Below are positions 8,372 through 29,149 of a DNA stretch of 64,000 bases, piece after piece (positions within the stretch are counted from its first letter, which is position 1; each line of letters starts with the position of its first letter). This stretch comes from Bacteroidota bacterium. Its GTDB lineage: Bacteria > Bacteroidota > Bacteroidia > NS11-12g > UBA9320. Made by a program: the position numbers and the translations under genes. The notes beneath the pieces are model-generated. The model saw only the letters and a list, made by a program, of their open reading frames with translations. It made no database searches and was not told the origin of the DNA. The stretch spans positions 186,001-250,000 of the forward strand of contig JABWCE010000001.1 in NCBI GenBank assembly GCA_013359235.1, read 5' to 3'.

Positions 8372-10132
8372 ATGAAAAATTTATTTCGTTTATTTAAATA
8401 TATTTTTAAAAGAGAACCATCCTTTTTAACAGATTCAATTTTTGAATTTTATTTACCGCATTGGATAAACAGAAAAACAACATTTTTATTAAAAAACAAA
8501 AAAACTTTATTGTACGTTGGGATTATTTTATTTGCATTCATTTTATTAATTTTATTAACTTTTTCTATCAAAATTGCTTTATTTTTCTTTATTCTTATTA
8601 ATGTGTTATTATTTCTATTTTTTAATTATATTGGACTCACAGTACTTATAGATAAGAACAAGGTTAATGAGAAAAAATTAACAGAATTAATTAAAAATCA
8701 AAAAAGTATTTTTATAGATTATGAGACATATTTAAATAATAATAATGCAACTTTATCAAACATAAAAAAATCTTACAAAAAAGACGATGAATTAGTTATT
8801 GGACAATTTGACACAGATGGTAGAGTTTATTCAGAGTACGGTATTTTGCCTTTTCAAATTATGGTTTCAAAAAATGAATTTGTTAAACGGTCACGTTACA
8901 AAATGTCCATAGTTATTAAAGAAGGAGTAGTTTTAGTTAAAAAAGAGTTCAATACAAAAAGAAAAGCATTTTTTAACGAACTTTTTTCAGTATTAACATT
9001 GCCAAATGAAATATTAAAACCTCATATTCATTCTTTTGATTTAAAGAATTTAATAATTTATAAATCTTTAATTTTGGGCGATACTCTTAGAAATGTAATT
9101 GTTAAAAATGGAGGTAAAATACTGAATGCAGATACAGATACAGAATTTAAAAATTCAAGTTTAACTAATACTCAAAAAATAAATTTAATACTAAAAAGAG
9201 GCACAGAAATAATTAAAAATATTATAAATGAAAACCAATATTTAAAATTTGAAGAAGAAATTAAAAAAATACATCATGCAGGCATAACAAATTTAAGTTT
9301 AACATTTGGGAATATTATACTTGAAGAAAATACAAAAAATTTAATAATGATTGATTATGAATCAACCTTACTTCATAAAAAAAGAACATTATTCTTTCAT
9401 TATTGTAAAAATAATGATTTGCTTAAGTATAATAATATTTTTTCACGCAACACTTTGGTAGAATCAGTTGCTCAAGAATTAATAAAAAGAGATTCCTTAA
9501 AATTTTCTTCGTTTTATGCCTCTATTAATTTTGGGAATGGCTTTTTTATTGGACCTTTTTGGGATAAAGAATCTGGTATCGGAAGATGGAATTTTTTCAA
9601 TAAGAATGTTTTACCAAAAATAGTATATGGAAAAAGGATATTAGACATGGGAACAAATAATTCATATTTGTCACTTCTTTTGATTAAGGAAGGGATGGCA
9701 AAGGAAGTTGTTTGCGTAGAACGTGACCCTATTTTTATAGAAAGAGCCAATTTAGTAAAAAAGATTTTCAATTGGCGAGATGATGTTGATTATCCAATTA
9801 GATTAATTGAAGGAGATATGTTTGACTTTACAAATGGGAAATATGGTTATGATTATGACATCATTACATTTTTCTGTTCGATATATTATTTAGAAGAAGA
9901 AAATATTAGAAAATTATTAAAATATTCAGCATTCAAAATTCCAGAAATAATTATTCAGAGTAATGACGGAACAAGAAAAGATGCCCCAGAAAACAAAAGT
10001 TATAAATCCTCTACTAATTTTCTTATTGAAACATTAAAAAATACAGGCTTTGAAATTATAAAAACTTATTATGGGAGAGGGTTTTCGAGACCCATTATAC
10101 ATGCAAGAAGTAAAGTTTATTTTAAAGACTAA
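8372..10132 (+). CDS. Membrane-anchored kinase-like domain fused to a methyltransferase
   Basis: A 586-residue fusion. Residues about 44-95 are hydrophobic and likely form two membrane segments. Residues about 150-345 resemble the lipopolysaccharide-kinase/RIO-like branch of the protein kinase fold: VLVKKEF could hold the ATP-contacting lysine, IHHAGITNLSLTFGNII (residues about 299-315) aligns with the catalytic loop, and MIDYES (about 326-331) with the DFG-like metal site. The usual catalytic Asp position reads Ser. Residues about 415-586 form a class I methyltransferase (RILDMGTNNSYLSLLL, then VERD). The pairing recalls WbdD of E. coli O9a, a chain-terminating methyltransferase-kinase, but with domains in opposite order. 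Function is inferred only. Confidence 0.6.
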   Translation: MKNLFRLFKYIFKREPSFLTDSIFEFYLPHWINRKTTFLLKNKKTLLYVGIILFAFILLILLTFSIKIALFFFILINVLLFLFFNYIGLTVLIDKNKVNEKKLTELIKNQKSIFIDYETYLNNNNATLSNIKKSYKKDDELVIGQFDTDGRVYSEYGILPFQIMVSKNEFVKRSRYKMSIVIKEGVVLVKKEFNTKRKAFFNELFSVLTLPNEILKPHIHSFDLKNLIIYKSLILGDTLRNVIVKNGGKILNADTDTEFKNSSLTNTQKINLILKRGTEIIKNIINENQYLKFEEEIKKIHHAGITNLSLTFGNIILEENTKNLIMIDYESTLLHKKRTLFFHYCKNNDLLKYNNIFSRNTLVESVAQELIKRDSLKFSSFYASINFGNGFFIGPFWDKESGIGRWNFFNKNVLPKIVYGKRILDMGTNNSYLSLLLIKEGMAKEVVCVERDPIFIERANLVKKIFNWRDDVDYPIRLIEGDMFDFTNGKYGYDYDIITFFCSIYYLEEENIRKLLKYSAFKIPEIIIQSNDGTRKDAPENKSYKSSTNFLIETLKNTGFEIIKTYYGRGFSRPIIHARSKVYFKD

Positions 10133-12621: not shown

Positions 12622-13980
12622 TTGAGTAGACGATTAAAAATAATGTGGATTTTAATGCATATCTCATTAGGAGTTATTTATGCTTTCTTCAATCCAATTA
12701 CAATATTTTTAGAATTGATTGCTTTTATTTTAGGACTATATTTTGCTGTTACTAAAGGAAATTCGCAAATTCAATTTATGCAATGTTTAGTTTATCTTGT
12801 AAGTATTGAAATAGCCACACGATCACAAGATATTTTACCTCATGAATTCGTCAAATACGGTATTTCAATTTTGATGATTGTTTACTTACTTGTAAATTCT
12901 AAAGAATTAAAAACTGAAAAATATACGTGGCTGGCATTATTATACTTTTTTTTATTATTGCCTTCACTTCTAATAGGAGAATACGACGAGTTAGAAAAAC
13001 CTATTAATGTAATTTCATTTTCGTTATCAGGTCCCATATCATTAGCTGTTTCATGTTCTTTTTTTTCACGTTATACTTTGACAATAAATAATTTATTAAG
13101 AGTTTTATCCTTTGCATTATATCCAATTATATTATCTCTATTATATATTATTATAAAAGCACCTAATATTAAAGATATAGAATGGGCATTGGGGGCTAAT
13201 TTTGAATCATCTGCACACATGACTGGACCCAATCAAATTAGTTCAATTTTCGGATTGGGATTATTTATTTTATTTTTTACAATATACAATAAATTTTACT
13301 TTAGTGGATACAGATTTATTGATATATTATTTTTTGGCATTCTTCTTTTTAGAACAATTTTACTTTTTTCGAGAGGAGGTTTAATAAGTGGATTTTTAGC
13401 AATAATTACATTATACATATTTGATATACTTTTAAAAAGTAAAAATGCATCTGAAAAATTTAATAAAATTTTTCAAGTTATAATTTTTATTGTTTTATCT
13501 ATACTTTTATTTAACATCGTTAACGACATAACAAATGGCACTTTGTATAAAAGATATCGTGGAGAAAAAGCAAATACCGAAATTACAGGAGAAATAGATT
13601 ATTTTTCTAATAGAGAGCAAATTATAGATTCTGATATTAATATTTTTTTACAAAATCCTATATTTGGCATTGGACCTGGCTTAGGTAAACACTACAGAGA
13701 TAAATATTTGGGGTGGGGAGCATCAGCACATACCGAACTTACAAGGTTGCTGGCCGAACATGGTTTATTAGGAATTTTAGCTGCCATTATTATAATTTAT
13801 TTATCAATTGTTTCAATAAAAAAAAATAAAAAAATAGGAATTCCCATAGTTGCTTCATTAATCGTATTAAGTATATCTACATCGTTCCACGCAGCAATGA
13901 GGTTAGCTATGGTTGGTTTTATTTTTGGTTTAAGCCAATTAACCATAAAATCAAATTCAAATAAAAAAAACTATGTGTAA
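12622..13980 (+). CDS. Wzy-type O-antigen polymerase / O-antigen ligase family
   Basis: A polytopic membrane protein of 452 residues with about 10 to 12 hydrophobic segments. The large loop contains SRGGLISG and then NPIFGIGPG...HTELTRLLAEHGLLG, the pattern of the Wzy_C/O-antigen ligase domain with its conserved Arg and His residues. It should polymerise flipped repeat units in the periplasm. The frame opens with TTG at 12622; an ATG eight codons inside (12643) is a reasonable alternative start. The end overlaps the following gene by eight bases. Confidence 0.87.
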   Translation: MSRRLKIMWILMHISLGVIYAFFNPITIFLELIAFILGLYFAVTKGNSQIQFMQCLVYLVSIEIATRSQDILPHEFVKYGISILMIVYLLVNSKELKTEKYTWLALLYFFLLLPSLLIGEYDELEKPINVISFSLSGPISLAVSCSFFSRYTLTINNLLRVLSFALYPIILSLLYIIIKAPNIKDIEWALGANFESSAHMTGPNQISSIFGLGLFILFFTIYNKFYFSGYRFIDILFFGILLFRTILLFSRGGLISGFLAIITLYIFDILLKSKNASEKFNKIFQVIIFIVLSILLFNIVNDITNGTLYKRYRGEKANTEITGEIDYFSNREQIIDSDINIFLQNPIFGIGPGLGKHYRDKYLGWGASAHTELTRLLAEHGLLGILAAIIIIYLSIVSIKKNKKIGIPIVASLIVLSISTSFHAAMRLAMVGFIFGLSQLTIKSNSNKKNYV

Positions 13981-15103
13981 AAAAATAAAGATATTAAATC
14001 TAAGCAGTCATTTAGGCATTGGAGGCTCAGAAATTCAACTTAGATTAGTTTCATTATCACTATCACAAAAAAAATATGAAATGGCTATATTAATATATAA
14101 TAATAGCGATCACTTTGTTTTTAATGATGAGTTGAGAAAAAAAGGAATAAAAATTTATCAATCTAATTTTAATAACTCATTATTAAAACTTATTCATACT
14201 CTTTATGTAATTATTACTTTTAAACCTAAAATTATACATTCTTGGAATTCTTATATTAATCCCATTGCTTATTTTTTGGGCAAATTGTTTTTCGTTAAAA
14301 AAATTATAGGATCAGTAAGAGGAAGCCCAAAAAACGAATTTATCAGATATAAAAGTTGGAGAAAAAAATTATACTTACTAGGGAATAATATCGTAGTAAA
14401 TTCAAATGAAATTATTAAAGAATTAAAAGAAATTGGACTGAAAACAAACAATGCAATTTATATTCCTAATTTAATTGAAGAAAGTAAAAAATCAGATAAT
14501 AAAACTAAAGAAAATTACATAAAAGAATATAAAATTTCTAAAAATGATTTTGTTTTTGTTAATGTTGGAAATTACAGAAAAGAAAAAAATCAAAAATTTC
14601 TTATAGAAATAATAAACTACTTATCACATTCAATATCAAATATTAAATGTCTAATAGTTGGTCAAACAATAGCTGGACAAGAAAATGTATATTATGAATT
14701 GTGTAATTTAATAGATAAATATGGCTTACAAGAAAAAGTAATTTTAACCGGATTTATTAAGGATACAGCTTCAATAATAGATTTAGCAGATATTTATATT
14801 CATACTTCAATAAGTGAAGGAACATCTAATGCTTTATTAGAAGCAATGCAATTAGGAAAATGTATAGTCACAACTGAAATTGGAGGTGCAAAAGATTTAA
14901 TTATACAAAATGAAAATGGTATAATTCTTCCTTGTAATAATTTAAATGAAAATCTTGATGTAATAAATTTTTCAAATAAATTGATAGAATTATTCCATAA
15001 TAAAACATTAAGAGAATCACTTGGTAAAAATGCAAATATTTTTATAAAAGAAAACTTTAAACATTCAAATATTATTTGTTTATATGACAAAATTTATAAT
15101 TAG
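13973..15103 (+). CDS. GT4-family glycosyltransferase
   Basis: GT4 protein of 376 residues. The acceptor half begins with ILNLSSHLGIGGSEIQL, the donor half has FVNVGNYRKEKN, CLIVGQ, VILTGFIKD and the motif EGTSNALLEAMQLGK (residues about 281-295). The ATG at 13973 overlaps the end of wzy by eight bases. It belongs with the cluster that assembles the repeat unit on the cytoplasmic face; donor unknown. Confidence 0.9.
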   Translation: MCKKIKILNLSSHLGIGGSEIQLRLVSLSLSQKKYEMAILIYNNSDHFVFNDELRKKGIKIYQSNFNNSLLKLIHTLYVIITFKPKIIHSWNSYINPIAYFLGKLFFVKKIIGSVRGSPKNEFIRYKSWRKKLYLLGNNIVVNSNEIIKELKEIGLKTNNAIYIPNLIEESKKSDNKTKENYIKEYKISKNDFVFVNVGNYRKEKNQKFLIEIINYLSHSISNIKCLIVGQTIAGQENVYYELCNLIDKYGLQEKVILTGFIKDTASIIDLADIYIHTSISEGTSNALLEAMQLGKCIVTTEIGGAKDLIIQNENGIILPCNNLNENLDVINFSNKLIELFHNKTLRESLGKNANIFIKENFKHSNIICLYDKIYN

Positions 15104-15109
15104 ATTGAT

Positions 15110-15877
15110 ATGTTTCGTATAGAAATAAAAGATAGTTTAGCTAAGATATATTTTTGCAAAACTGAAAATCGGAATGCGCTTTCAATTGAAGCTTTAGATG
15201 CACTTATCAATATTATTAAAGAGTTAAATAACGATTTAGGCATAAAAACTATATCAATTTTTAGTGAATTGAATAATGTTTTTGTATCAGGGGCAGATAT
15301 TCGTGAATTTAGTAAATTTCGCTATAAAGAAGGAAAAGATTATGGAAAAAAAGGGCATCTTTTGATGAATACTATCGAAAATTCAAATAAACCAATAATT
15401 GCAGCAATTAATGGCTATGCCGTTGGAGGTGGTTTTGAATTGGCATTAGCTTGTCATATTAAATTTGCAACCGAAAATGCTAAATTTGGGTTTCCGGAAG
15501 TTAAACTTGGAATTTTACCTGGGTTTGGTGGTAGTCAAAGAATTTTTGATTACGTAGGAAAAAGTATTGCAACTGATTTGATATTGACAGGAAAAATTAT
15601 TGATGTTGATGTTGCTTCTAAATATAGTTTAATAAATTATTTAGTAGATTCGAACAACTTAGAAATTGAAATTGAAAAATATGCATTAGAGCTAGCATCT
15701 AACTCTAGTACAGGAATTAAATTTGCAATTAAAAGTATAAACAATAGATTTAACAAAGTAAGAACTAATGCATTAAATCACGAAATTGAATATTTAGCAG
15801 AATGTATGAATAACAAAGATTTCATTGAAGGAACATCAGCTTTTTTGCAAAAAAGAAAACAAAATTTTAATGATTAA
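15110..15877 (+). CDS. Crotonase family (enoyl-CoA hydratase/isomerase) protein
   Basis: A 255-residue crotonase-fold protein. The oxyanion-hole segments GADIREF (about residue 62) and GYAVGGGFELALAC (about 102-114) are present, and both catalytic Glu positions of enoyl-CoA hydratase are kept (Glu110 and Glu130 in FPEVKLGILPGFGG). A hydratase activity is therefore plausible. It is unusual in a polysaccharide locus, sits in tight spacing between a GT4 gene and a deacetylase gene, and may provide a hydroxyacyl-CoA for sugar N- or O-acylation. That role is inference. Confidence 0.85.
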   Translation: MFRIEIKDSLAKIYFCKTENRNALSIEALDALINIIKELNNDLGIKTISIFSELNNVFVSGADIREFSKFRYKEGKDYGKKGHLLMNTIENSNKPIIAAINGYAVGGGFELALACHIKFATENAKFGFPEVKLGILPGFGGSQRIFDYVGKSIATDLILTGKIIDVDVASKYSLINYLVDSNNLEIEIEKYALELASNSSTGIKFAIKSINNRFNKVRTNALNHEIEYLAECMNNKDFIEGTSAFLQKRKQNFND

Positions 15878-16781
15878 TAGTGTAACTTATTTTCTTGATA
15901 AAATAGTTGGTAATTATAAAGGAGGGTTTGTTATAGCGTACCATCAAATTTCAGAAAATAGATTTATTGAACATCAACAATTATTTGAAAAATTAGAAGC
16001 TATTCCGCTAATTGAATTACTTAAAAGGAATAAAAACGGACTGAATACAAAAGGTTTATATTCTATAACAATAGATGATGCTTATGAAAATACTATTGAA
16101 CCTCTTACACAAAATCTTAAAGTTCCTATAACAATTTTTGTTCAAACAGATTATATTAAAGGGATTATTCCTGACTTTGTAAAATTTTATATTTATCAAG
16201 ATTTATCAAATTTAGATATAGTAAAAAATGAATATTTTAATAAATTTTCAATTGCTATTGATAATTTTTTTTCAGAGTTGAAATTAATTCTCTATTCACA
16301 AAAAACTTCACAATTTAACAAATTTTGCGAACATTATGCCGATTTTTTAAAAACAAATAATTTTATATCAGATGAATCAATGAAAAATTTCTTACCTTCA
16401 ATTGGTCCATTGTTAATTAGCAAATTATCAAAAAACGAATTAATATCATTTGAAAGTCACGGAAAATCGCATCAACCAGTTTCTGCACTTACAAAAGATG
16501 AGCTATCACATGAATTAAAATCTAGCATTAATGAAATATTGCAACTCACCGGTAAGGTTTCTAAAATATTTTGCTATCCTTATGGACAACAAATTTCAAT
16601 AGGAAACATTGCACCTGAATTAGTCTCATTGTTATTTGAATTTGCAGTTACAATGAACCCTGGAAGGATTAAATCATCAAATCCTTATTTAATTCCTCGT
16701 ATCCCCTTTTTTGAAAAAGATTATAAATTAAGAGCTTTAGCCAAAATCTCTACTTTATTTTATAAACAAAATGGCTATTAG
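15870..16781 (+). CDS. Polysaccharide deacetylase family protein
   Basis: NodB-like carbohydrate esterase family 4 protein, 303 residues from the ATG at 15870. An upstream in-frame ATG at 15825 would overlap the crotonase by 53 bases, so the later start (eight-base overlap) is preferred. Motif 1 appears as ITIDDAY with Asp69/Asp70, and motif 2 as SHGKSH with His197 and His201, the metal ligands. FCYPYGQ and LIPRIPF follow as later motifs. It should remove an N-acetyl or other acyl group from a sugar of the polymer or its lipid-linked precursor. No signal peptide is seen, so it likely acts in the cytoplasm. Confidence 0.8.
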   Translation: MINSVTYFLDKIVGNYKGGFVIAYHQISENRFIEHQQLFEKLEAIPLIELLKRNKNGLNTKGLYSITIDDAYENTIEPLTQNLKVPITIFVQTDYIKGIIPDFVKFYIYQDLSNLDIVKNEYFNKFSIAIDNFFSELKLILYSQKTSQFNKFCEHYADFLKTNNFISDESMKNFLPSIGPLLISKLSKNELISFESHGKSHQPVSALTKDELSHELKSSINEILQLTGKVSKIFCYPYGQQISIGNIAPELVSLLFEFAVTMNPGRIKSSNPYLIPRIPFFEKDYKLRALAKISTLFYKQNGY

Positions 16782-17682
16782 ATTTATTTCAGATAAAGAT
16801 TATGAATTACTTAAATTGTTCTTTTATCAATCAAATAAAATTGTATATTCATTAGAAGAATTCAAAAACCGTTATTCAAATAACGATTCAAGACTAAGTA
16901 TGATTTATGAAATTGACGAAACTAATGAAATTGCTGCATTTTTAGGTGTTTTTATTGAAAAAGCATCTGTAAATAATAATAAAGTAATTGCTTGCCAATT
17001 TGTTGATGGTTTAACTAATCCAAAATTCAGAGGAAAAGGATATTTTAAAATTTTGGCATTAAAAGTATTTGATGAATGCAAAAATTATGGCTGTTCTTTT
17101 ATTTTTGGTTTCCCAAACAAGATGGCTTATCCTGTTTGGAAAAAATTAGGTTGGGTGTTTAAGGAAAATATGAAAATTATAAATTTTTATATTCCAACTT
17201 TTCCACTTTCTCTATTTTTTAGTAAAAGTAAAATAACTATGAAAATATTCAATTTAATAAAAAAATTCGAGAAAAATTCTGATTCTTTAAGTTATTTCAC
17301 CACAACTAAAGAAAATAAAGATTTTATAATACATGATTTAAAATTTTTTAATAGAAAAGTTCGAGATAATAAGCAAATAATAACAATTGACAATGTGAAA
17401 CTTGTTGTAAAATTTGACAAATCTCTTAAAGTGGGATTAATTTCGGATATTAATGATAGACACACTTTTTTAAGTATATTAAAGAAATTAAAAACTCTAT
17501 GTTTTTTTTCTGGAATTGTTAGACTGGATTTTATACTTCACCCCAATAATACCTTGTTGCGATTTTTTGATAATGAAAAAAACGTTTCAAAACATACCGT
17601 ACCGGTAGGTTTTTGGGAAATAAACAAATTGTTTGATTTTGAAAATTTTGAATTTAATTTAATAGATTTTGACACATACTGA
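16771..17682 (+). CDS. GNAT-family acyltransferase with C-terminal extension
   Basis: Residues about 1-140 match the GCN5-related N-acetyltransferase fold: the acetyl-CoA loop appears as FRGKGYFKILA (residues about 86-96), followed by NKMAYPVWKKLGW, the usual final strand-helix pattern. The remaining ~160 residues have no clear match. It overlaps the deacetylase gene by 11 bases. Deacetylation followed by re-acylation with another acyl group is a coherent reading of the crotonase-deacetylase-GNAT trio, but is not proven by sequence. Confidence 0.75.
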   Translation: MAIRFISDKDYELLKLFFYQSNKIVYSLEEFKNRYSNNDSRLSMIYEIDETNEIAAFLGVFIEKASVNNNKVIACQFVDGLTNPKFRGKGYFKILALKVFDECKNYGCSFIFGFPNKMAYPVWKKLGWVFKENMKIINFYIPTFPLSLFFSKSKITMKIFNLIKKFEKNSDSLSYFTTTKENKDFIIHDLKFFNRKVRDNKQIITIDNVKLVVKFDKSLKVGLISDINDRHTFLSILKKLKTLCFFSGIVRLDFILHPNNTLLRFFDNEKNVSKHTVPVGFWEINKLFDFENFEFNLIDFDTY

Positions 17683-18721
17683 TAAACAAAAACATTTTGA
17701 CAAAAAACCAAAAATTGCCATAGTAGGACCATTATTAGGTATTCATAATGGAAAAGCTGTAAGCCAAGGAGAATTTTTAGGTATTAAACTAGAAGAAGAG
17801 GGTTATTCTGTACTATATATTTCAAGAAAAATAAAAAAAATTGCAAGATTAATAGACACAATTAAACAACTATTATTCAAAAAAAAGCAATACGATATAA
17901 TTATTCTACAAGGAATGGGGTGGCAGCATAAGTATATGGAGTTAATTACATATATTTTAAGTCGCATACTTAGAAAGAGGCTTATATATACTATGCATGG
18001 TGGAAGTTTACACAATGAGTATAAAAGCTCTATGATATATAAATTTTTGTTTAATCGCATAAAAACCATAACTGTGCCATCAGAATATTTTTTTGAATTA
18101 TTTAGAAAAAAAGGTATTAAAACAGAAATAATCTATAATCAAATAACCCTAAATAATTATATTTTTACTGAACGTTATCAAATAAACCCGTCATTATTAT
18201 GGATGCGTACGTTTCATATTGATTACAATCCATTAATGGCAATTAAGGTAGTTCAAGTATTAAAAGACGAATTCCCAAATATTAAATTATATATGGGAGG
18301 AGCTAATGGTAAATATTTTGATTTTATTAAAAATTATATAGAAAACCATCAGTTAGAAAACATTGTTCATTTAATTGGATATTTGGATGTTGATAAAAAA
18401 AATGAATATTCAAAAAAATGCGATTTTTATTTATGTACCAATACTTATGATAACACACCTGTTTCAATGATTGAAATGATGGCAATGGGGCTAATTATTA
18501 TAAGTACAAATGTAGGTGGTATTCCATACATGATTAAAAATAATGAGAATGGAATTTTAGTAAAAAATGATGACCATTTAGAAATGGCAGAGGCAATAAA
18601 AAAATTGCTTTATGATAATGAAACCTCAAAAGAAATAAGTAAAAATGCCCGAAAATCTATTGAGAAATTTGATTGGGAAAAATCAATTAAACATAAGTGG
18701 TTAACTATTTTAAATAATTAA
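17669..18721 (+). CDS. GT4-family glycosyltransferase
   Basis: GT4 protein of 350 residues: IAIVGPLLGIHNGKAVSQGE at the N-terminus, MHGGSLHNEY, LYMGGANG, HLIGYLD and a donor-site segment NTPVSMIEMMAMG near residues 262-275. The only start that keeps the first strand is TTG at 17669, which overlaps the preceding gene by 14 bases. Donor and acceptor unknown. Confidence 0.85.
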   Translation: MTHTDKQKHFDKKPKIAIVGPLLGIHNGKAVSQGEFLGIKLEEEGYSVLYISRKIKKIARLIDTIKQLLFKKKQYDIIILQGMGWQHKYMELITYILSRILRKRLIYTMHGGSLHNEYKSSMIYKFLFNRIKTITVPSEYFFELFRKKGIKTEIIYNQITLNNYIFTERYQINPSLLWMRTFHIDYNPLMAIKVVQVLKDEFPNIKLYMGGANGKYFDFIKNYIENHQLENIVHLIGYLDVDKKNEYSKKCDFYLCTNTYDNTPVSMIEMMAMGLIIISTNVGGIPYMIKNNENGILVKNDDHLEMAEAIKKLLYDNETSKEISKNARKSIEKFDWEKSIKHKWLTILNN

Positions 18722-18726
18722 AAAAA

Positions 18727-20592
18727 ATGTGTGGAATTTTCGGCTTTATTGGAAGCCAAAGTATTGACATAAAAAAATGTACCGACATAATATCACACAG
18801 AGGACCCGACTCTGAAGGTTTCTTAGCATGTAATTTAAAAGAAAATTGTAAGATATATAAAGGACAAGCTGCTATTGATTTTGGTAAAAGTGAAAATTAT
18901 AAACTTTTATTTGGTTTTAGAAGGCTCGCAATTATTGATTTGAGTGTAGATGCAAATCAACCTTTTATTGATGAAAGCAACAGTTATTCGATAGTATTTA
19001 ATGGCGAAATATATAACCACATTGAATTAAGAAAAGAACTTGAAGAGCATGGTCAATCATTTCAAACTCATTCTGATACAGAAGTATTGTTAAAATCATA
19101 CATATTTTGGGGAAAAGATTGTGTAAATAAATTTAATGGGATGTGGGCATTTTCAATTTTGGATTTAAATAAAAATATCATCTTTTGTTCAAGAGATAGG
19201 TTTGGGGTTAAACCTTTTTATTATTATAACCAAAATGACGAATTTGTTTTTTCATCAGAAATTAAACAATTATTTGAGGCAAATGTTCCTAAACAAATTA
19301 ATGAAAATATTATCCGTGACTTTTTACAAAAGAATATAATCAACCATAGTTATGAAACTTTTTTCAAAGATATATATCAACTTTTGCCTGGACATAACAT
19401 TATTATAGATATTTCAAATCAAAAAATTAAACCAGAAATTACAAGATTCTGGTATCTGAAAAGTAACATAAATATTGAAAAAATGACTTTTCAAAATGCT
19501 TGTGAAAAATTTAGAGAATTATTTATAAACTCTATCAAACTTAGATTCAGAAGTGATGTTCCAATCGGGTCATGTTTAAGCGGAGGATTAGATTCTTCAT
19601 CTATTGTATGTGTATCTGCAAAAGAGATGAATCAAAAAATTCATACTTTTTCAGCAATTTTTAAAAAGTATAAAAAATTTGATGAATCATTTTATATTGA
19701 ATTAATACGTAAAAAATATCCCATTGTGGATAGTCATTTTATTACATTTGATGAAGAATTGCTTATTAACGAATTAGACAAGGTAATTTGGCACCAAGAT
19801 GAACCTTTTGGTTCATTTAGTATTTTTGCTCAGTATTTTGTAATGCAGTTATCAAAAAAAGAGGGAGTTAAAGTACTATTAGATGGTCAAGGTGGCGATG
19901 AGATTCTGGCTGGATATAGAAAATATCATGCTTTTTATTTAAAAGAATTATTAAAACAAGGAAAATTATTAAAAGCAATTAAAATAATATTTCATTTATT
20001 AATTAATAAAGAATTTAATTTTTTTAATAAGAATGGAATTAAAAGATATTTAGGTTTAGATCAAAGTATAAATTACTTATCAAATAAATGTAAAAGTAAT
20101 CCTTTGAGTTCGTCTATAGGTATTGATAGTGTTAGTTCATTAAAATCGAAATCAAAAGATGATATTGAAATGTATTCATATCCACCATTACTAAGATATG
20201 AAGATAGAAATTCAATGTCATTTTCAATTGAAACACGTGTACCTTTTATGGATTATAATTTGGTCACATTTTTATTTTCTCTCCCTTCTGATTTTTTGAT
20301 AAATAAAGGATTTACAAAATATATTTTAAGAGAATCATTAAAAGATTATTTGCCACCAAAAATAAAAAATAGAAAAAGCAAATTAGGTTTTGCTACACCA
20401 CAAGATGAATGGTTGAATAATAAACTTTTCCCTATAATGAAAAATCATTTTTATAATATGAAAAATCCATATCTACTAAACTCAAAAATCTATAAAGACT
20501 TTTTAGTTTATCCAAAAAGTAAATTATCAAGTGATGACTTTGCTAGATTTTTTATTTTTGATAAATGGTACAAATTACATTTCTCAAATTAA
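18727..20592 (+). CDS. Asparagine synthase-like amidotransferase (AsnB/WbpS type)
   Basis: A two-domain glutamine-dependent amidotransferase of 621 residues. The N-terminal class II glutaminase starts with the nucleophile Cys2 (MCGIFGFIG) and keeps HRGPDSEG and FNGEIYNH. The synthetase domain has the PP-loop SGGLDSSSIV (residues about 285-294) and LLDGQGGDE. Housekeeping AsnB makes asparagine. In O-antigen loci, homologues such as WbpS are thought to amidate a hexuronic acid. Position inside this locus, with HexNAc-uronate genes at 1279 and 2567, favours the sugar-amidating role. Confidence 0.87.
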   Translation: MCGIFGFIGSQSIDIKKCTDIISHRGPDSEGFLACNLKENCKIYKGQAAIDFGKSENYKLLFGFRRLAIIDLSVDANQPFIDESNSYSIVFNGEIYNHIELRKELEEHGQSFQTHSDTEVLLKSYIFWGKDCVNKFNGMWAFSILDLNKNIIFCSRDRFGVKPFYYYNQNDEFVFSSEIKQLFEANVPKQINENIIRDFLQKNIINHSYETFFKDIYQLLPGHNIIIDISNQKIKPEITRFWYLKSNINIEKMTFQNACEKFRELFINSIKLRFRSDVPIGSCLSGGLDSSSIVCVSAKEMNQKIHTFSAIFKKYKKFDESFYIELIRKKYPIVDSHFITFDEELLINELDKVIWHQDEPFGSFSIFAQYFVMQLSKKEGVKVLLDGQGGDEILAGYRKYHAFYLKELLKQGKLLKAIKIIFHLLINKEFNFFNKNGIKRYLGLDQSINYLSNKCKSNPLSSSIGIDSVSSLKSKSKDDIEMYSYPPLLRYEDRNSMSFSIETRVPFMDYNLVTFLFSLPSDFLINKGFTKYILRESLKDYLPPKIKNRKSKLGFATPQDEWLNNKLFPIMKNHFYNMKNPYLLNSKIYKDFLVYPKSKLSSDDFARFFIFDKWYKLHFSN

Positions 20593-20637: not shown

Positions 20638-21846
20638 TTGACTTCAAAAGCCATTTGGGTTATAAACCAATTTGCAGGTCATACAAATAGTGGCTGGGGT
20701 GAAAGACATTTTCTATTTAGTAAATACTGGATTGAAAACGGTTTTGATGTAACAATAATTTCAGGAAGTTTTAATCATGTATTTAAAAATTATCCTCATG
20801 CACCTTTTAAATATAACTACGAAATAATTGAAAAAAGGAAATTTTGTTGGGTAAAAGTACCTAAATATAAGGCTGAAAGTGCAAAACGATTTTGGAGTAT
20901 GTTGGTTTTTGCTTTCAGATGTATCGGGCTTAAAAAAAATGAACTTGGTAAGCCTGATGTCATAATAGTTTCATCAATGCCAATATTTCCTATTTTAAGT
21001 GCTTTAATACTTAAAATAAAGTATAAAAAAGTTAAAATTCTTTTTGAAATTAGAGATTTATGGCCCGAAAGCCTTATTCAAATTAAGGAAATAAGCAAAA
21101 TCCATCCTTTGGTTTTGTTTTTTAGATTATTTGAATGGATTGGTTATAAATATAGTGACAGAATTATCACTTTATTACCAAACTCTATTGAATATTTTAA
21201 AAAATTCAATATAAAATCAAATAAAATTTCAATCATACCCAATGGTATTGACATAAATTTAAAAAACGAAGAACTTAATAAAGAATTAGTTAATAAATTA
21301 ACGAATCAAAAATTTAAAATAATTTATACAGGAACAATTGGATATCCAAATTGCATTGAACTGCTTGTAAAAAGTGCTGAATTATTAAAAAATAATACAG
21401 ATATACACTTTTATATTGTTGGTGATGGGCATCAAAAAGAAAACTGTATAAAATTAGCAAAAGATTTGACTAACATAACGTTTATAGATAAAGTTCCAAA
21501 ATCTTATGTTCAATCCATTTTGAAATTTGCTGATGTTTGCTTTATTGGTTGGCGTGAATTAGGTTTATACAAACACGGAGTATCAGCCAATAAATATTTT
21601 GATTATATGCTTGCTGCTAAGCCAATTTTAGATTCAAATAATTTAATAAAAGACCCTGTTGAATTATCCGGCTGTGGTTTAATTGTAAAACCTGATTCGG
21701 CAGAGGCTATTGCAAATGGCATCATTGAATTGTATTCTTTAGGCGATGAAAAATTAAAAGAGATGGGGCAAAAGGGACGAGAATTTGTATCAAAAAATCA
21801 CAATATAAAACACCTTGCATCCTTATATAGTGAGCTTTTCGGATAA
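20638..21846 (+). CDS. GT4-family glycosyltransferase (WbuB/FnlB-associated type)
   Basis: 402-residue GT4 protein resembling the WbuB group: WVINQFAGHTNSGWGERH, an FEIRDLWPES segment, PNGIDI, YTGTIGYPN, FYIVGDG, IDKVPK and a donor-site region with GVSANKYFDYMLAAKP. WbuB-type enzymes transfer N-acetyl-fucosamine or related sugars, but that specificity cannot be assigned here. The start is TTG at 20638; no ATG is available near it. The end overlaps the next coding frame. Confidence 0.85.
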   Translation: MTSKAIWVINQFAGHTNSGWGERHFLFSKYWIENGFDVTIISGSFNHVFKNYPHAPFKYNYEIIEKRKFCWVKVPKYKAESAKRFWSMLVFAFRCIGLKKNELGKPDVIIVSSMPIFPILSALILKIKYKKVKILFEIRDLWPESLIQIKEISKIHPLVLFFRLFEWIGYKYSDRIITLLPNSIEYFKKFNIKSNKISIIPNGIDINLKNEELNKELVNKLTNQKFKIIYTGTIGYPNCIELLVKSAELLKNNTDIHFYIVGDGHQKENCIKLAKDLTNITFIDKVPKSYVQSILKFADVCFIGWRELGLYKHGVSANKYFDYMLAAKPILDSNNLIKDPVELSGCGLIVKPDSAEAIANGIIELYSLGDEKLKEMGQKGREFVSKNHNIKHLASLYSELFG

Positions 21847-22753
21847 ATACACACTTCTTACCGGTTCTTCAGGCTTTTTAGGAACACATATTAAAAGTTA
21901 TCTTTCGCAAAATGGTTTTAATGTACTATCTCTTGGGAGAAAAAATGCCGACATTCCTTCTGATATAAGTCATGAAATCCCCACAATCCCTCAAAACACA
22001 CAATATTTAATTCATGCTGCGGGCAAAGCACACTCCATACCCAAAACCCCGAAAGAAGTTTCGGATTTTTATCAGGTAAATCATCAAGGCACTTTAAATA
22101 TTTTAAATGCTATTGAAAAATGTGAGGTAGGAATTAAATGCTTTATTTTCATAAGTTCTGTATCCGTTTATGGCTTGGATAGTGGGGAAGAAATTGATGA
22201 AAACTATCCATTAAAAGCAACCGACCCTTATGGCAAAAGCAAAATTTTAGCCGAAAACGCAATTATTGAATATTGCGATAAAAGAAATATAAACTATCTG
22301 ATATTAAGATTACCATTGATTGCAGGCAGCAATCCCCCGGGCAATCTTGGTGCCATGATAAAAGCCATTAAAAAAGGTTGGTATTTGTCAATAGGTAATG
22401 CAAGTGCTAAAAAATCGATGGTATTGGCAGATGATGTAGCCAACCTTATTTCTCAAAATTTAAATAAAAAGGGAATTTACAACTTAACCGATGGGTATCA
22501 CCCCACATTCAAAGAACTTGAAGCAACAATTTCAAATTCATTGAATAAAAAGAAGCCATTTGCTATACCCCAATCAATAGCCATAATGTTAGCCCAAGCA
22601 GGTGATTTGCTTGGAAACAAAAGCCCTTTTAATTCAATTAAGTTAAAAAAAATACAATCAACCCTTACTTTTTCTGATAAAAAAGCCCAAACTGAACTCA
22701 ATTGGAAACCCAATAAAGTATTAGATTACTTAGATAAGATTGTAGTTCATTAA
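21830..22753 (+). CDS. NAD-dependent epimerase/dehydratase (extended SDR)
   Basis: An extended SDR of about 307 residues with LTGSSGFLGTH as the dinucleotide-binding motif, ISSVSVYG and YGKSK as the YxxxK catalytic pair. The later segment LRLPLIAGSNPPGNL is typical of UDP-GlcNAc/UDP-glucose 4-epimerase relatives found next to initiating transferases. No ATG is available: GTG at 21830 (used here) or TTG at 21815 are candidates, both overlapping the preceding transferase gene. The 3' end carries a sequence repeated 3.3 kb downstream after the neu cassette. Confidence 0.75.
   Translation: MSFSDKYTLLTGSSGFLGTHIKSYLSQNGFNVLSLGRKNADIPSDISHEIPTIPQNTQYLIHAAGKAHSIPKTPKEVSDFYQVNHQGTLNILNAIEKCEVGIKCFIFISSVSVYGLDSGEEIDENYPLKATDPYGKSKILAENAIIEYCDKRNINYLILRLPLIAGSNPPGNLGAMIKAIKKGWYLSIGNASAKKSMVLADDVANLISQNLNKKGIYNLTDGYHPTFKELEATISNSLNKKKPFAIPQSIAIMLAQAGDLLGNKSPFNSIKLKKIQSTLTFSDKKAQTELNWKPNKVLDYLDKIVVH
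22696..22722 (+). repeat. Direct repeat copy 1 (in epimerase 3' end)
   Basis: 27 bases, 24 of which match 26050-26076, including a 15-base identical run (ACTCAATTGGAAACC). In this copy the bases encode the Leu-Asn-Trp-Lys-Pro tail of the epimerase. With its partner it brackets the neu cassette. Confidence 0.8.
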
Positions 22754-22927: not shown

Positions 22928-23062
22928 ATGAAATTAAATAACCTCTTCACCATCGCAGAAATAGGACAAGCACACGAAGGCAGTTTAGGAATGTTGTATT
23001 CCTATATTGATGCTTTGGCACAAACAGGAGTGGGTGAATTAGCACATTTAAAAACTTTATGA
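22928..23062 (+). pseudogene. NeuB-family N-terminal fragment
   Basis: A 44-codon reading frame from ATG to TGA. It reads IAEIGQAHEGSLGM followed by YIDALAQTGV, which is the first strand and helix of NeuB-type sialic/legionaminic acid synthases. After TGV the family continues with a lysine-bearing strand, but here it departs and stops after 13 more residues. The stop overlaps the neuA start as ATGA. The fragment differs from the intact neuB at 23735, so it is a remnant of a second paralogue rather than a duplicate end. Confidence 0.75.
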
Positions 23063-23730
23063 AGTTAAAAACTATTGCAATAATACCAGCAAGAGGTGGT
23101 TCTAAAAGATTACCACATAAGAATATAAAGCTATTGGGTGAAAAACCATTAATATTGCATAGTATACAATATGCAAAGCGCCATAATTTTATAGATGAGG
23201 TTTATGTATCTACAGATTGCACAGATATTATGAAAGTTGCAATTGAAAATGGAGCGCAAGTTATAGAAAGACCCCATGAATTGGCAGGTGATTATGAACC
23301 AACAATAAGCGCAATCAAACATGCAATTCTTTCCATTCCAAGCCCAATAGAAAATGTGATAATTTTGCAAGCTACCAATCCTTTAAGACCCAAAGAACTT
23401 CTAAACGATGTTTTTAAATGTTACACGCAACACGCTTTGTCATCTTTATTTACAGTAACTGAAAACACAAAAAAGTTTGGAAAAATTCAACAGAATAAAT
23501 TCATTCCCTATAATTATTCACCCGGACAACGGAGTCAAGATTTAGAAAAGCTCTATTATGAAAACGGTTTAATTTATATTACCAAAGCAAAGAGTATAAT
23601 GGAGGGCTATATTATGACCCCTGATGCACTACCATATATTGTGAATCACATTTTTGCAAATGTGGATATAGATACAATTGAAGATTTTGATTATGCTGAA
23701 TATTTAATAAAAAATCACGAAGAAAAATAA
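23059..23730 (+). CDS. neuA: CMP-N-acetylneuraminate (acylneuraminate) cytidylyltransferase
   Basis: Activates a nonulosonic acid with CTP to give the CMP-sugar. The 223 residues begin with the CTP-binding pattern [15 protein letters not shown] (residues 8-22), then [15 protein letters not shown] and the metal-binding [14 protein letters not shown] near the end. The start ATG overlaps the stop of the neuB fragment. It is first of the neuA-neuB-neuC trio, which together suffices to make CMP-sialic acid from UDP-GlcNAc. Confidence 0.9.
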
Positions 23731-23734
23731 GATT

Positions 23735-24778
23735 ATGAATAATCCTTTCATTGAAATTGCAGGAAGAAAAATAGGTCAGGATTTTCCACCTTTAGTAATT
23801 GCCGAAATAGGTATTAATCATGAAGGCTCCTTACAAGTAGCAAAAGAAATGGTTGATGCGGCACATAGGGCTGGTGTTGAAGTCGTAAAACACCAAACCC
23901 ATATTGTTGCTGACGAAATGAGTGGTGCTGCAAAAAAAGTAATCCCAGGTAATGCTAATGTTTCCATTTATGAAATAATGGAACGATGTGCTTTAAATGA
24001 AGATGAAGAATTAGAGCTAAAAAAGTATGTAGAAGCTAAAGGAATGCTATTTATTTCAACACCTTTTTCGCGAGCAGCCGCAGATAGATTGAAAAAATTT
24101 GATATTCCTGCCTATAAAATAGGCTCTGGTGAATGTAACAATTACCCTTTGTTAGAACATATTGCATCATTCGGTAAACCAGTTATTTTAAGTACAGGAA
24201 TGAACACCATTGAAAGTATACAAAAAGCCGTAGCTATTTTTGACAAACACAATGTTCCGGTTGCACTTTTACATACAACAAATTTATATCCTACGCCTGT
24301 TCATTTAGTGCGTTATGGAGCGATGATAGAAATGCATCAAGCATTTCCAGATAAAGTATTTGGATTGTCTGACCATACATTAAACAATAATGCATGTTTG
24401 GGAGCTGTAGCACTAGGTGCTTCTATTTTAGAACGCCATTTTACAGATAATATGGAAAGAAAAGGTCCAGACATTATTTGTAGTATGGACGAATCTGCTT
24501 GTAAAGATTTAATCATAGCAAGCAAAGAAATTGCTCAAATGAGAGGAGGAACAAAAAAACCTGCAAAAGAAGAGCAAGTTACGATAGATTTTGCTTTTGC
24601 AACAGTATGCACCATTAAAAACATCAAAAAAGGAGACTTGTTAACAAAAGAAAATATATGGGTAAAAAGACCAGGAACAGGCGAAATATTAGCAGAACAT
24701 TTTAATGCTATACTTGGTAAAAAAGCTACAAGGGATATTTTAATTGATGAGCAACTATCGTTTAATGATTTTTGTTAA
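23735..24778 (+). CDS. neuB: N-acetylneuraminate synthase (sialic acid synthase)
   Basis: Condenses N-acetylmannosamine with phosphoenolpyruvate. The TIM-barrel domain holds [35 protein letters not shown] and [19 protein letters not shown]. The C-terminal antifreeze-like SAF domain (residues about 285-347) carries VKRPGTG. Length (347) is typical. It lies five bases after neuA and abuts neuC. A legionaminic or other nonulosonic acid substrate cannot be excluded, but with the neighbouring NeuC-type hydrolysing epimerase sialic acid is the best reading. Confidence 0.9.
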
Positions 24779-25906
24779 ATGAAAAAGATAGTCTTTTTAA
24801 CAGGTACTCGAGCAGATTTTGGTAAAATAAAATCGCTAATTCAAATACTTGAATCCAATAATAAATTTGAGGTTTTTCTTTTTGTTACTGGAATGCATCT
24901 TCAAAAAGAATATGGCTATACACTTATTGAAGTGCAAAGATGTAATTTTAAAAACATACATACCTTTCAAAACCACACCAGTGAAACTACAATGGACTTA
25001 ACACTGGCAAAAACAATCAATGGTTTTTCAAAATATATAAAAGAAATTGAACCTGATATGATTATTGTTCATGGCGATAGGGTTGAAGCATTGGCAGGAG
25101 CAATAGTTGGGTCGCTTAATAATATTTTAGTAGCACATATAGAAGGTGGAGAATTGTCGGGGACGATTGATGAGTTAATTCGGCATTCCATTAGTAAGCT
25201 AAGTCATATCCATTTTGTAGCCAATAAAACTGCAAAAAAGAGATTGCTCCAAATGGGTGAGTTAGAAAAATCTGTTTACATAATTGGTTCGCCAGACTTA
25301 GACATTATGTTTTCTGAAAACTTGCCCAATCTATCTGAAGTAAAAGCGTATTATCAAATACCTTTTAATGAATATGCAATTGTTATGTTTCATCCAGTAA
25401 CAACAGAAATAGACGATATGGATAACTATGCAAGCAATTTCGTAAACTCATTATTAGCTGTAAATCATAATTTTGTAGTTATTTATCCAAATAATGATTT
25501 GGGAAGTAAAATAATATTAAAACATTACCGTCAGCTTAATAATAATTCACGATTTAAAATTTTTCCTTCTTTAAAGTTTGAATATTTTTTGACCTTGCTT
25601 AAAAAAGCATCATTTCTAATAGGAAATAGTAGTGCTGGTGTAAGAGAAGCCCCTTATTATAACTTGCCCTCAATAAATATTGGGACAAGGCAAAATAACA
25701 GAGTAACACATACAAGTATCATAAATGTAAGTTATGATACAGATGAAATAACGAATGCTATAACAAAATTAAATACCAATTTCCAACCAGAAAATAAAAA
25801 ATTTTCCGATTTTGGTAATGGTAACAGTGCTGAACTATTTTTAGATTCATTACAAGAAGAAAATATTTGGCAGTTAAATCATCAAAAACAATTTAAGGAT
25901 TTTTAA
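24779..25906 (+). CDS. neuC: UDP-N-acetylglucosamine 2-epimerase (hydrolysing)
   Basis: Converts UDP-GlcNAc to ManNAc and UDP, the first step toward sialic acid. The 375-residue protein has TGTRADFGKIKSLI at the N-terminus, VHGDRVEALAGA, the substrate-site HIEGGELSGTIDELIRHSIS, FHPVTTE and IGNSSAGVREAP. These fit the NeuC branch rather than non-hydrolysing WecB. It starts at the base after the neuB stop, so the cassette is a tight transcription unit. Confidence 0.88.
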   Translation: MKKIVFLTGTRADFGKIKSLIQILESNNKFEVFLFVTGMHLQKEYGYTLIEVQRCNFKNIHTFQNHTSETTMDLTLAKTINGFSKYIKEIEPDMIIVHGDRVEALAGAIVGSLNNILVAHIEGGELSGTIDELIRHSISKLSHIHFVANKTAKKRLLQMGELEKSVYIIGSPDLDIMFSENLPNLSEVKAYYQIPFNEYAIVMFHPVTTEIDDMDNYASNFVNSLLAVNHNFVVIYPNNDLGSKIILKHYRQLNNNSRFKIFPSLKFEYFLTLLKKASFLIGNSSAGVREAPYYNLPSINIGTRQNNRVTHTSIINVSYDTDEITNAITKLNTNFQPENKKFSDFGNGNSAELFLDSLQEENIWQLNHQKQFKDF

Positions 25907-26106: not shown

Positions 26107-27345
26107 ATGAAAATTGATTATGTTTTAAGTTCATATCCTTCAAAACCAACTATTTTTGTTTATCGGGAAATAAAAGAATTGATTAGAAATGGGCATGATG
26201 TTAGAATTATAAGTTTATTACCAAAAGTTTTTGTTTCAAATAAAAAGAAATATGAAGTAATTGATAATATTGATGTTTTGTACCCATCTTCTAATCCTTT
26301 ATCATACTTGGTAAGTACTCTTTATTGTATTTTTACCGGGAAATCTGTAATTTTTTCAAAAGAACATTTTAGTGAAACTTTTTATCTTTTAAATAAAAAA
26401 AATATCTTTAAACTCATTTATTGTACTTTTTTAATTGACAATTTGATTTTTAAAATAAATTTAAATAAAATTTCAATAAAACACATTCATTCTCATCATC
26501 TTTTCTTTACAACCTATATAGCATATCAAATTTCTAAAAAAATAAACGCTCCATTTAGTACAACTCTATACACTTTATCATACTTTTATCCTAAGAATAT
26601 ATTAAAAGCTATTTTAAAAAAAAACATCTTTATAAGAACAACTACTTCTGAATTAGCACCATTTTATAACGGAATTATTCAAGATAGAAGTAAATTTCAC
26701 CATATATCAAACGGAATTCATTCTAAGGAATTTACTTTTAACCCAAGCTATAAAATTGGTGAAATTTTGAAAATAATTGCTGTTGGCTCATTATTAGATA
26801 AAAAAGGGTTTGATACCTTAATTTTTTCATGTTTAACATTAAAAGAATATGGATTAAATTTTGATTGTAAAATTATTGGTGATGGACCTGAAAAAAAATT
26901 CCTAAACAAATTAATTAAATCTTTAAATCTCGAAAAATACATTAAAATTTATACATGGATTGATAATTCTTTAGTTTTAAAAAAAATTTCAGATTCCGAT
27001 ATTTTAGTTATGCCTTGCAGGTTACCTAAAAAATCAACTCGCGATGGATTACCTAATGTGATAATAGAAGCAATGGCATCGGGTACTATAGTAATAGGTT
27101 CAAGATTTGCCGGTATCCCGGATATTATAAAACATAAAGAAACAGGACTACTAATATCTCCCGAAAACGCAGATGAGATAACCAATGCAATAATTGAAAT
27201 TTATTTTGATAATACATTAAGAGAATATTTAATAAATAATGCTTTAAATAAAATAAAAACTGAATATTCGCTTGAACCTAATATTTTCAAACTTCAACAA
27301 CTTTTCTTATCATCGGATTTTTTAGAAAAAAATGATGAACTTTAA
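26107..27345 (+). CDS. GT4-family glycosyltransferase (WcaL-like)
   Basis: 412-residue GT4 enzyme resembling colanic-acid WcaL/AmsK-type transferases: LSSYPSKPTIFVYREIKEL at the N-terminus, IHSHH, a SNGIHSKEF linker, IAVGSLLDKKGFDTLI, CKIIGDGPEK and the donor motif DGLPNVIIEAMASGT (residues about 314-328). It is the first intact gene after the neu cassette and overlaps the next by 14 bases. Donor unknown. Confidence 0.88.
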   Translation: MKIDYVLSSYPSKPTIFVYREIKELIRNGHDVRIISLLPKVFVSNKKKYEVIDNIDVLYPSSNPLSYLVSTLYCIFTGKSVIFSKEHFSETFYLLNKKNIFKLIYCTFLIDNLIFKINLNKISIKHIHSHHLFFTTYIAYQISKKINAPFSTTLYTLSYFYPKNILKAILKKNIFIRTTTSELAPFYNGIIQDRSKFHHISNGIHSKEFTFNPSYKIGEILKIIAVGSLLDKKGFDTLIFSCLTLKEYGLNFDCKIIGDGPEKKFLNKLIKSLNLEKYIKIYTWIDNSLVLKKISDSDILVMPCRLPKKSTRDGLPNVIIEAMASGTIVIGSRFAGIPDIIKHKETGLLISPENADEITNAIIEIYFDNTLREYLINNALNKIKTEYSLEPNIFKLQQLFLSSDFLEKNDEL

Positions 27346-28561: not shown

Positions 28562-29149
28562 ATGAAAGTTGAAGAACCCGATTTTGAGTACGGAATTTAT
28601 TCTTATGCCGATTATCTGAAATGGACTTTAGATGAACAAGTAGAAATAATAAAGGGTAAAATTTTTAAGATGAGTCCGGCACCTAAAAGGATTCATCAAA
28701 AAATTTCAATAAACATTGCAAGCAATTTATACAATTTTTTAAAAGGCAAAAAATGTCAGGTTTACGATGCTCCATTTGATGTAAGACTCCCTGTGAAATC
28801 AAACAAAAACGAAGATATTTTCACGGTTGTACAACCTGATATTTGTGTAATTTGTGACCCTTCAAAACTCGATGAAGCTGGCTGTATTGGTGCTCCAGAT
28901 ATTGTTATTGAAATACTTTCGAAAGGCAATAACAAAAAAGAACTTCAAGTAAAATATGAAGTATATGAAGAATCAGGAATTAAAGAATACTGGATAATCC
29001 ACCCCGACGAGCAAACTGTTTTGATTTATAAATTAGTTAATGGGAAATATGAGCCATCAAGGCTTTTAACCAAAGGCGACACAATAACAACATCAATTTT
29101 GGAAGGTTTTGTTTTAGACTTAGAAAGCGTATTTGAAGATGAAGGCTGA
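28562..29149 (+). CDS. Uma2-family (DUF820) PD-(D/E)XK nuclease-like protein
   Basis: 195 residues with the Uma2/DUF820 pattern: YADYLKWT, EIIKGKIFKMSPAP, VVQPDICVICD and GAPDIVIEILSKG...K, where Asp, Glu and Lys form the restriction-endonuclease-like core. The biological role of this widespread family is poorly known. It sits 21 bases after the dehydratase gene and seven before the initiating transferase, so it is probably co-transcribed with the polysaccharide genes, though nothing ties it to sugar chemistry. Confidence 0.85.
   Translation: MKVEEPDFEYGIYSYADYLKWTLDEQVEIIKGKIFKMSPAPKRIHQKISINIASNLYNFLKGKKCQVYDAPFDVRLPVKSNKNEDIFTVVQPDICVICDPSKLDEAGCIGAPDIVIEILSKGNNKKELQVKYEVYEESGIKEYWIIHPDEQTVLIYKLVNGKYEPSRLLTKGDTITTSILEGFVLDLESVFEDEG

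Follow-up and report, generated by a model that had tools for sequence, protein, structure and literature searches.

Three overlapping genes of a Bacteroidota bacterium encode what we read, at a probability of roughly one half, as an N-acyl exchange cassette, provided with a hydroxyacyl donor by an enoyl-CoA hydratase and set in a Wzy-type surface-polysaccharide locus. The genes occupy positions 15110-17682 of the 64,000-nucleotide stretch that we analyzed (contig JABWCE010000001.1 of assembly GCA_013359235.1, positions 186,001 to 250,000 of the forward strand; hereafter "the window"). They are called here ECH, a crotonase-type enoyl-coenzyme A (CoA) hydratase; DAC, a polysaccharide deacetylase; and GNAT, a tandem-GNAT N-acyltransferase. 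The proposed reaction comprises three steps. (i) Deacetylation: DAC would act in the cytoplasm on a lipid-linked or nucleotide-linked sugar, taking the N-acetyl group off an N-acetylhexosamine (HexNAc) residue. (ii) Donor supply: ECH would hydrate a short enoyl-CoA to an (S)-3-hydroxyacyl-CoA donor, the (S) form being the ordinary crotonase product; the group might be 3-hydroxybutyryl, 3-hydroxypropionyl, or 3-hydroxyisovaleryl. (iii) Re-acylation: GNAT would acylate the freed amine anew from the acyl-CoA. The scheme as a whole is our inference, from the individual reactions and where they take place to the identity of the sugar and of the acyl group with its stereochemistry.

Gene Layout and Conservation in a Sister Species

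The three open reading frames (ORFs) are consecutive on the + strand, with overlaps of 8 nt (ECH/DAC) and 11 nt (DAC/GNAT):

15110-15877, + strand: ECH, crotonase-type enoyl-CoA hydratase, 255 aa, ATG start; proposed maker of the acyl-CoA donor
15870-16781, + strand: DAC, CE4/NodB-fold polysaccharide deacetylase, 303 aa, ATG at 15870; proposed N-deacetylase
16771-17682, + strand: GNAT, tandem-GNAT N-acyltransferase, 303 aa, ATG start; proposed N-acylation step

The mechanically called DAC ORF reaches back to a TTG at 15825; the ATG at 15870 was used as its start.

A sister species (genome G002, locus L011, 7479-10057) carries the same trio in the same order, between the same flanking glycosyltransferases and with the same amidotransferase following; in that species the ECH/DAC overlap is 1 nt long, and a gap of 6 nt separates DAC from GNAT. 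The window and sister proteins are 76% (ECH), 73% (DAC), and 65% (GNAT) identical. The ratios of nonsynonymous to synonymous substitution (dN/dS) are 0.165 for ECH, 0.143 for DAC, and 0.186 for GNAT, next to 0.107–0.193 for the four flanking genes tested, all of them rough values because dS is 0.9–1.5 in this comparison.

When the window GNAT was used as the query, a match was found in two of the 38 genomes of the family (the source genome and its sister) and in six of the 108 genomes of the order, four of them weak, at five places. At none of these five places does an ECH adjoin the GNAT; one of the loci (L019) has an ECH ~7 kb away. A scan of named records with the same single query found no relative, and such scans draw samples, so that a trio elsewhere can have been missed. 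The original prediction, made from the letters of the window alone, of three overlapping genes inside a sugar locus is borne out by the ORFs, the Pfam matches, and the conservation in the sister species; the co-occurrence search that it called for returned the same trio from that one species and no further trio from the sampled genomes.

The Deacetylase and the Acyltransferase

DAC matches Polysacc_deac_1 (PF01522) with 40.2 bits against a cut-off of 23.1, over profile positions 47–107 of 124 only. Eight of its residues, H25, D69, D70, H197, H201, P237, G239, and R277, are invariant in all 19 aligned sequences, the window's included, and D69, D70, H197, and H201 supply the D, D, H, H set of CE4/NodB-fold deacetylases. 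A Foldseek search with an AlphaFold2 (AF2) model of DAC (mean predicted local distance difference test score, pLDDT, of 76.5; residues 101–155 below 50) placed CE4-type deacetylases in all of its top 13 matches, including 6go1, PgaB, PplD, and IcaB. No signal peptide is obvious by eye, which suggests that DAC acts in the cytoplasm before export.

GNAT matches Acetyltransf_9 (PF13527; 31.7 bits, cut-off 25) as well as PF00583. Its AF2 model has a mean pLDDT of 83.6, with residues 164–175 below 50, and was compared with solved structures by VIA-align, giving Z scores of 19.9 to 2hv2, 19.5 to Mycobacterium abscessus Eis2, and 18.6 to Candida albicans N-myristoyltransferase (NMT). Among the best 50 matches, model residues 1–302 align to Eis and NMT chains with Z scores of 17.5–19.9. 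As modeled, GNAT is an Eis/NMT-like tandem fold with two GNAT-like halves per chain. It resembles these enzymes in this fold, and perhaps also in ending at a residue that may serve as a base, and differs from them in sequence (6–13% identity among the same 50 matches), in length (303 aa, compared with chains of 341–443 aa), and in substrate.

The last residue is F or Y in all 23 aligned GNAT sequences, including the window's, which ends in D-F-D-T-Y. Passages of one review name the C-terminal carboxylate of NMT (L455) as a likely general base and consider that F402 of Eis might be a remote base; according to them, NMT is the only member of the GNAT superfamily with a catalytic carboxylate at its C terminus (PMC4964394). 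By analogy with NMT, the shared F or Y end is suggestive of a similar role in GNAT, whose own C-terminal carboxylate may be the general base.

Recurrence of the DAC–GNAT Pair

The pairing of DAC with GNAT extends well beyond the two trio genomes. A GNAT profile searched against 395 genomes of the class found 34 places, 32 of them outside the trio genomes, and DAC directly adjoins GNAT at 24 of these 32. Similarly, when named records were scanned with a profile built from six GNAT family members, 49 loci came up; removal of six duplicates and of one locus that lacks a GNAT ORF left 42. DAC is the direct neighbor in 30 of the 42, and the two genes stand side by side in Legionella rowbothamii, L. 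santicrucis, L. longbeachae, and a Herbaspirillum, among others. For both sets combined, DAC directly neighbors GNAT in 54 of 74 loci, whereas 2000 shuffles gave 12.1 such loci on average and never more than 22, and the adjacent pairs mostly overlap or lie a few nt apart. The examined stretch is without a DAC in 14 of the 74 loci, some of which end at contig ends. One locus (L127, 7995-13053) holds a single DAC with two GNATs of the window GNAT's family.

Two nonulosonic-acid-like loci with distant GNAT relatives (L019 and L020), in which NeuA-, NeuB-, and NeuC-like genes are present, have a PIG-L de-N-acetylase, from a family unrelated to that of DAC, one gene away from the GNAT. We read these two examples as a sign that GNATs of this sort may also be partnered by a deacetylase of another type. 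The GNAT relative, the NeuC-like gene, and the PIG-L gene stand in a row on one strand (6422-9226 in L019; 6842-9596 in L020), and the NeuB-like gene adjoins.

Among the literature matches listed (titles and beginnings of abstracts), no publication dealt with the ECH-DAC-GNAT trio or the DAC–GNAT pair. The parts are already known; their combination was not met in the literature searched, as far as those matches go.

The Hydratase

ECH matches ECH_1 (PF00378) with 165.5 bits against a cut-off of 27. No specific NCBIfam hydratase model passed among the best 25 of 72 families (the top score was 203.9 bits, with a cut-off of 313), so the substrate of ECH cannot be named. The best solved chains were 5zai (3-hydroxypropionyl-CoA dehydratase) and 5z7r (short-chain enoyl-CoA hydratase) in a profile search, and 7eum followed by 5z7r and 5zai in a single-sequence search. 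E110 and E130, which we take to be the catalytic Glu pair of crotonases, align with Glu residues of solved hydratases, are kept in the sister copy, and are conserved as Glu in 31 (E110) and 32 (E130) of the 34 ECHs aligned.

The profile result bears on the direction of the reaction, as 5zai is annotated as a dehydratase and crotonases are reversible. ECH might then dehydrate, and GNAT install an unsaturated group such as crotonyl. We regard this as very improbable: we know of no crotonyl amides in bacterial glycans. The corresponding hydroxy compounds are on record, since 3-hydroxybutanoyl amides, as sugars of both the (R) and the (S) form, are among those listed for Acinetobacter K loci in a part of one compilation (PMC9676051).

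The source genome holds nine ECH-domain matches, the window ECH included. One of them, a housekeeping ECH at a separate genomic site, is 39% identical to the trio ECH. The housekeeping ECH occurs in all seven genomes of the genus and the trio-type ECH in two of the seven, and for this reason the trio ECH is, judged by its sequence, an added and diverged copy distinct from the housekeeping enzyme. We considered whether it could be an old gene of the genus that has been relocated, and rejected this: the second ECH of the five trio-less genomes is only 33–36% identical to it and not its orthologue. That second ECH has shared surroundings in the five genomes, which by eye are not like a sugar locus.

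In the wider class, relatives of ECH at E <= 1e-60 occur in 74 of 395 genomes, including the source genome and its sister. The ECHs of 28 class loci (L081-L108) are 38–43% identical to the trio ECH and nearer to the housekeeping copy (median identity 52.5%, compared with 40.7% to the trio ECH). The window ECH sits inside a glycosyltransferase operon with no flippase adjoining it.

Candidate Acyl-Supply Genes beside the Pair

Another genus places a different set of acyl genes beside the pair. In two loci (L038 and L051), a β-ketoacyl synthase III (KAS III), an acyl carrier protein (ACP), and a ketoreductase (KR) immediately precede GNAT and DAC, and the five genes share a strand; a third (L035) has KAS III, ACP, and KR beside GNAT in another arrangement, with the ACP seen as a translation only. 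These are three of the 74 loci, all from one genus, and possibly reflect one event. The KAS III proteins encoded in L038 and L051 score above the cut-off of NF006829 (beta-ketoacyl-ACP synthase 3), and the product expected from the set, as identified by sequence, is a 3-hydroxyacyl-ACP. This hints, independently of the trio, that the pair works with non-acetyl acyl groups; a crotonase beside the pair would offer a second route to a hydroxyacyl donor.

In a further locus (L060, 7152-12649), DAC and GNAT immediately follow genes for a multidomain 3HCDH/ECH protein and a thiolase, which share their strand, and an acyl-CoA dehydrogenase lies on the far side of the pair. Although suggestive, this arrangement could have arisen by insertion of the pair into a beta-oxidation operon, and it was not counted as acyl supply.

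A Pfam tally of the surroundings covered 131 of the 270 proteins within two genes of the pair, after glycosyltransferase (GT)-like proteins, those at contig ends, those of >480 aa, and a few short ones had been dropped. The short-chain dehydrogenase/reductase (SDR)/KR family, with six members, is the sole acyl-related one among the best 25 of 120 families (at least three members each). Two of the six are the ketoreductases of L038 and L051, and the other four belong to L066, L069, L072, and L073, where the SDR lies two genes from GNAT, after a GT-like gene. The latter were not counted as acyl supply either. The two tested pass no NCBIfam cut-off; 2,4-dienoyl-CoA reductase is among their best models, below its cut-off. 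The row DAC, GNAT, GT-like gene, SDR is common to these four genomes of one genus, and a gene of the fatty-acid-hydroxylase family follows the SDR in L066 (Pfam) and in L069 and L072 (by eye).

Weighing the Exchange Scheme

Several observations weigh against the exchange scheme. An ECH stands beside DAC and GNAT only in the two sister species, probably through one event, and a stand-alone ECH lies within three genes at 0 of the 74 other GNAT loci. An ECH close to sugar genes is in itself no rarity: in 13 of the 28 class loci, a neighbor within 1.5 kb looks by eye like a polysaccharide flippase gene, and the four of these neighbors that were scanned with Pfam all match Polysacc_synt or Polysacc_synt_3. 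The same donor could come from the housekeeping ECH, in which case a dedicated copy would not be strictly necessary. GNAT reads CQFVDGLTN where its family has AQSGDTMTH, a departure that may mean a different substrate. When 13 loci were collected with a DAC profile, itself built partly from DACs adjoining GNATs, a GNAT lay within three genes in five and in none of the other eight. As for the KAS III sets, their route ends on ACP and not on CoA, a parallel in logic and not in donor; the ketoreductases pass no NCBIfam cut-off and are FabG-like by resemblance only; and L035 has its GNAT on the opposite strand and its DAC two genes away.

Some of these points favor a reading in which DAC and GNAT exchange the N-acyl group and ECH is a passenger, a diverged enzyme of fatty-acid or amino-acid degradation that landed in the operon. 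Apart from the restriction of ECH to two species, this reading, which we consider unlikely, can draw on the 74 other loci, where KAS III occurs within three genes in three and an ECH-domain protein in one, and where 70 have neither by the queries used, some of the stretches being short. It can also draw on the class housekeeping ECHs, which often adjoin a flippase gene, so that an ECH may end up close to sugar genes and yet play no part in the locus. A passenger is at odds with the retention of both catalytic Glu residues, the dN/dS of 0.165, and the overlap with DAC in both species; moreover, the trio ECH has no flippase gene next to it and is distinct from the housekeeping ECH, whose gene is at another genomic site. 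Apart from the trio, the class-wide neighborhood of housekeeping ECH and flippase-like gene looks old and may carry a meaning of its own.

The DAC-profile result bears on another reading, in which DAC and GNAT serve different sugars or stages, GNAT acylating an amine made elsewhere and DAC leaving a free amine. A GNAT missing within three genes at eight of 13 DAC-search loci would fit such a division of labor, as would the 14 of 74 GNAT loci with no DAC in the examined stretch, some of them cut by contig ends. We hold it to be quite improbable, since DAC is the direct neighbor of GNAT in 54 of 74 loci, mostly overlapping or within a few nt, and no DegT aminotransferase is among the 15 window proteins given to Pfam, which are a part of the window's proteins.

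The exchange scheme itself is close to the original prediction, in which a hydratase could make a hydroxyacyl-CoA such as 3-hydroxybutyryl-CoA, the deacetylase free an amino group, and the GNAT enzyme attach the new acyl group. That proposal is supported in part, by the gene identities, the catalytic residues, the tight packing, the conservation in the sister species, and the recurrence of DAC with GNAT, and further by the KAS III/ACP/KR set beside the pair in one other genus and the PIG-L gene near two distant GNAT relatives; 3-hydroxybutyryl stays a guess. The opposing case that it had named, a crotonase acting solely in fatty-acid breakdown, is made less likely by the separate housekeeping ECH in seven of seven genus genomes.

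Comparison with Known Systems

The Nod factor system of rhizobia is the closest in logic to the trio, with NodB as the deacetylase, NodA as the N-acyltransferase, and NodE/F for acyl supply. DAC has the NodB-type deacetylase fold through its match to PF01522, the family that includes NodB. No NodA match was found for GNAT in the Pfam scan, which returned only PF13527 and PF00583 at E <= 0.001. As described in part of one article, NodB frees the amine of N-acetylglucosamine, which the N-acyltransferase then acylates again, and the special acyl chain is provided by further genes (PMC5080398). Nod enzymes work on a chitin oligomer with NodE/F and ACP supply, whereas the trio sits in a Wzy-type polysaccharide locus, where the supply would be one crotonase and CoA; the trio is not a Nod system.

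A second likeness is to the O-polysaccharide of Flavobacterium psychrophilum, for which the authors, in the portion of the paper considered here, predict that wfpC-wfpG make and add a 3,5-dihydroxyhexanoyl N-acyl group (PMC6519341). As in the trio, the acyl-supply genes for this R-group lie within the O-antigen/polysaccharide locus. The same portion assigns the amine to PglF/PglE and the transfer to a PglD-like acyltransferase (PMC6519341), in contrast to the deacetylase and tandem GNAT of the trio. The window lacks a F. psychrophilum-type set of ACP, ketoacyl synthase, and ketoreductase, none of the three being found by phmmer with single L038 sequences as queries (E <= 1e-3).

The anthrose operon of Bacillus anthracis comprises a hydratase, a glycosyltransferase, an aminotransferase, and an acyltransferase. 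In this operon, as proposed for the trio, an enoyl-CoA hydratase encoded among sugar genes provides the hydroxyacyl-CoA with which an amine is acylated; unlike the trio, the operon obtains the amine from an aminotransferase and not by deacetylation. Our literature search for anthrose with hydratase found no paper. In lipid A synthesis, LpxC and LpxD carry out N-deacetylation followed by 3-hydroxyacyl N-acylation, using other enzyme families and another substrate than the trio.

The Host Locus

Around the trio lie Wzy-, flippase-, GT4-, WecA-, and phosphoglycosyltransferase-like genes and an asparagine-synthase-like amidotransferase; by this gene content, the host is a Wzy-type surface-polysaccharide locus. 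The neighbors most relevant to the trio, with their identity to the copy in the sister locus, are:

12622-13980, + strand: Wzy/O-antigen-ligase-like membrane protein, PF04932 at 45.7 bits (cut-off 31.7); 67%
13973-15103, + strand: GT4 glycosyltransferase on the 5' flank, 6-nt gap to ECH; 69%
17669-18721, + strand: GT4 glycosyltransferase on the 3' flank, overlapping GNAT by 14 nt if the TTG at 17669 is its start; 73%
18727-20592, + strand: asparagine-synthase-like amidotransferase, TIGR01536 at 463.1 bits (cut-off 267.1); 78%
21815-22753, + strand: Epimerase-family SDR (PF01370), possible 4-keto reductase; 60%
27332-28540, + strand: Polysacc_synt_2 (CapD-like) protein, PF02719 at 132 bits, possible UDP-HexNAc 4,6-dehydratase; 80%

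The last two, kept in both species, could make a 6-deoxy-HexNAc, a possible acceptor for the exchange.

A neuA/neuB/neuC-like block lies at 23059-25906, with NeuC above its NCBIfam cut-off and NeuB slightly under (399.4 bits, cut-off 399.65). NeuA/B/C was rejected as a necessary partner of the trio, being absent from the sister stretch L011, which ends soon after, so that the genes could lie beyond. TviB-like (585 bits, cut-off 592) and TviC-like (295 bits, cut-off 760) genes at 1279-3526 suggest an N-acetylated uronic acid, which the amidotransferase at 18727-20592 might amidate. At 2-1279, a Wzc-like chain-length kinase (by eye) ends in an unusual tyrosine-rich tail, a long YGYGYG... repeat followed by YYDDD. 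The polysaccharide locus also contains a putative endonuclease of the Uma2 family (28562-29149). For a 586-aa protein (8372-10132), Pfam gave only a methyltransferase match, below threshold and confined to the C-terminal part, and a 1152-aa protein on the - strand (50245-53703) carries many NTAIGYxSLxxNTxG-type repeats (by eye).

Implications

Non-acetyl N-acyl groups shape the antigenicity of some surface glycans, and in the cases given in the portion of the paper considered here they are attached to nucleotide-sugar amines made for that purpose (PMC6519341). A deacetylase–acyltransferase cassette would instead let a cell re-acylate an ordinary N-acetyl sugar. Tentatively, and with somewhat less than an even chance of being right, we propose that DAC and GNAT form a general "acyl-swap" cassette for bacterial surface glycans, found from Bacteroidota to Legionella, with exchangeable supply genes and a C-terminal carboxylate base. 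If this is true, no sugar aminotransferase would be needed, and ready-made N-acetyl sugars would be diversified. The acyl supply would be exchangeable, a crotonase here, KAS III/ACP/KR in another genus, and perhaps the beta-oxidation operon of L060, and the deacetylase itself would be swappable, CE4 here and PIG-L in L019 and L020. The neighboring supply gene would then allow the acyl group to be predicted from sequence: a crotonase would point to an (S)-3-hydroxyacyl group, and KAS III/ACP/KR to a 3-hydroxyacyl-ACP, which from such a set is usually (R).

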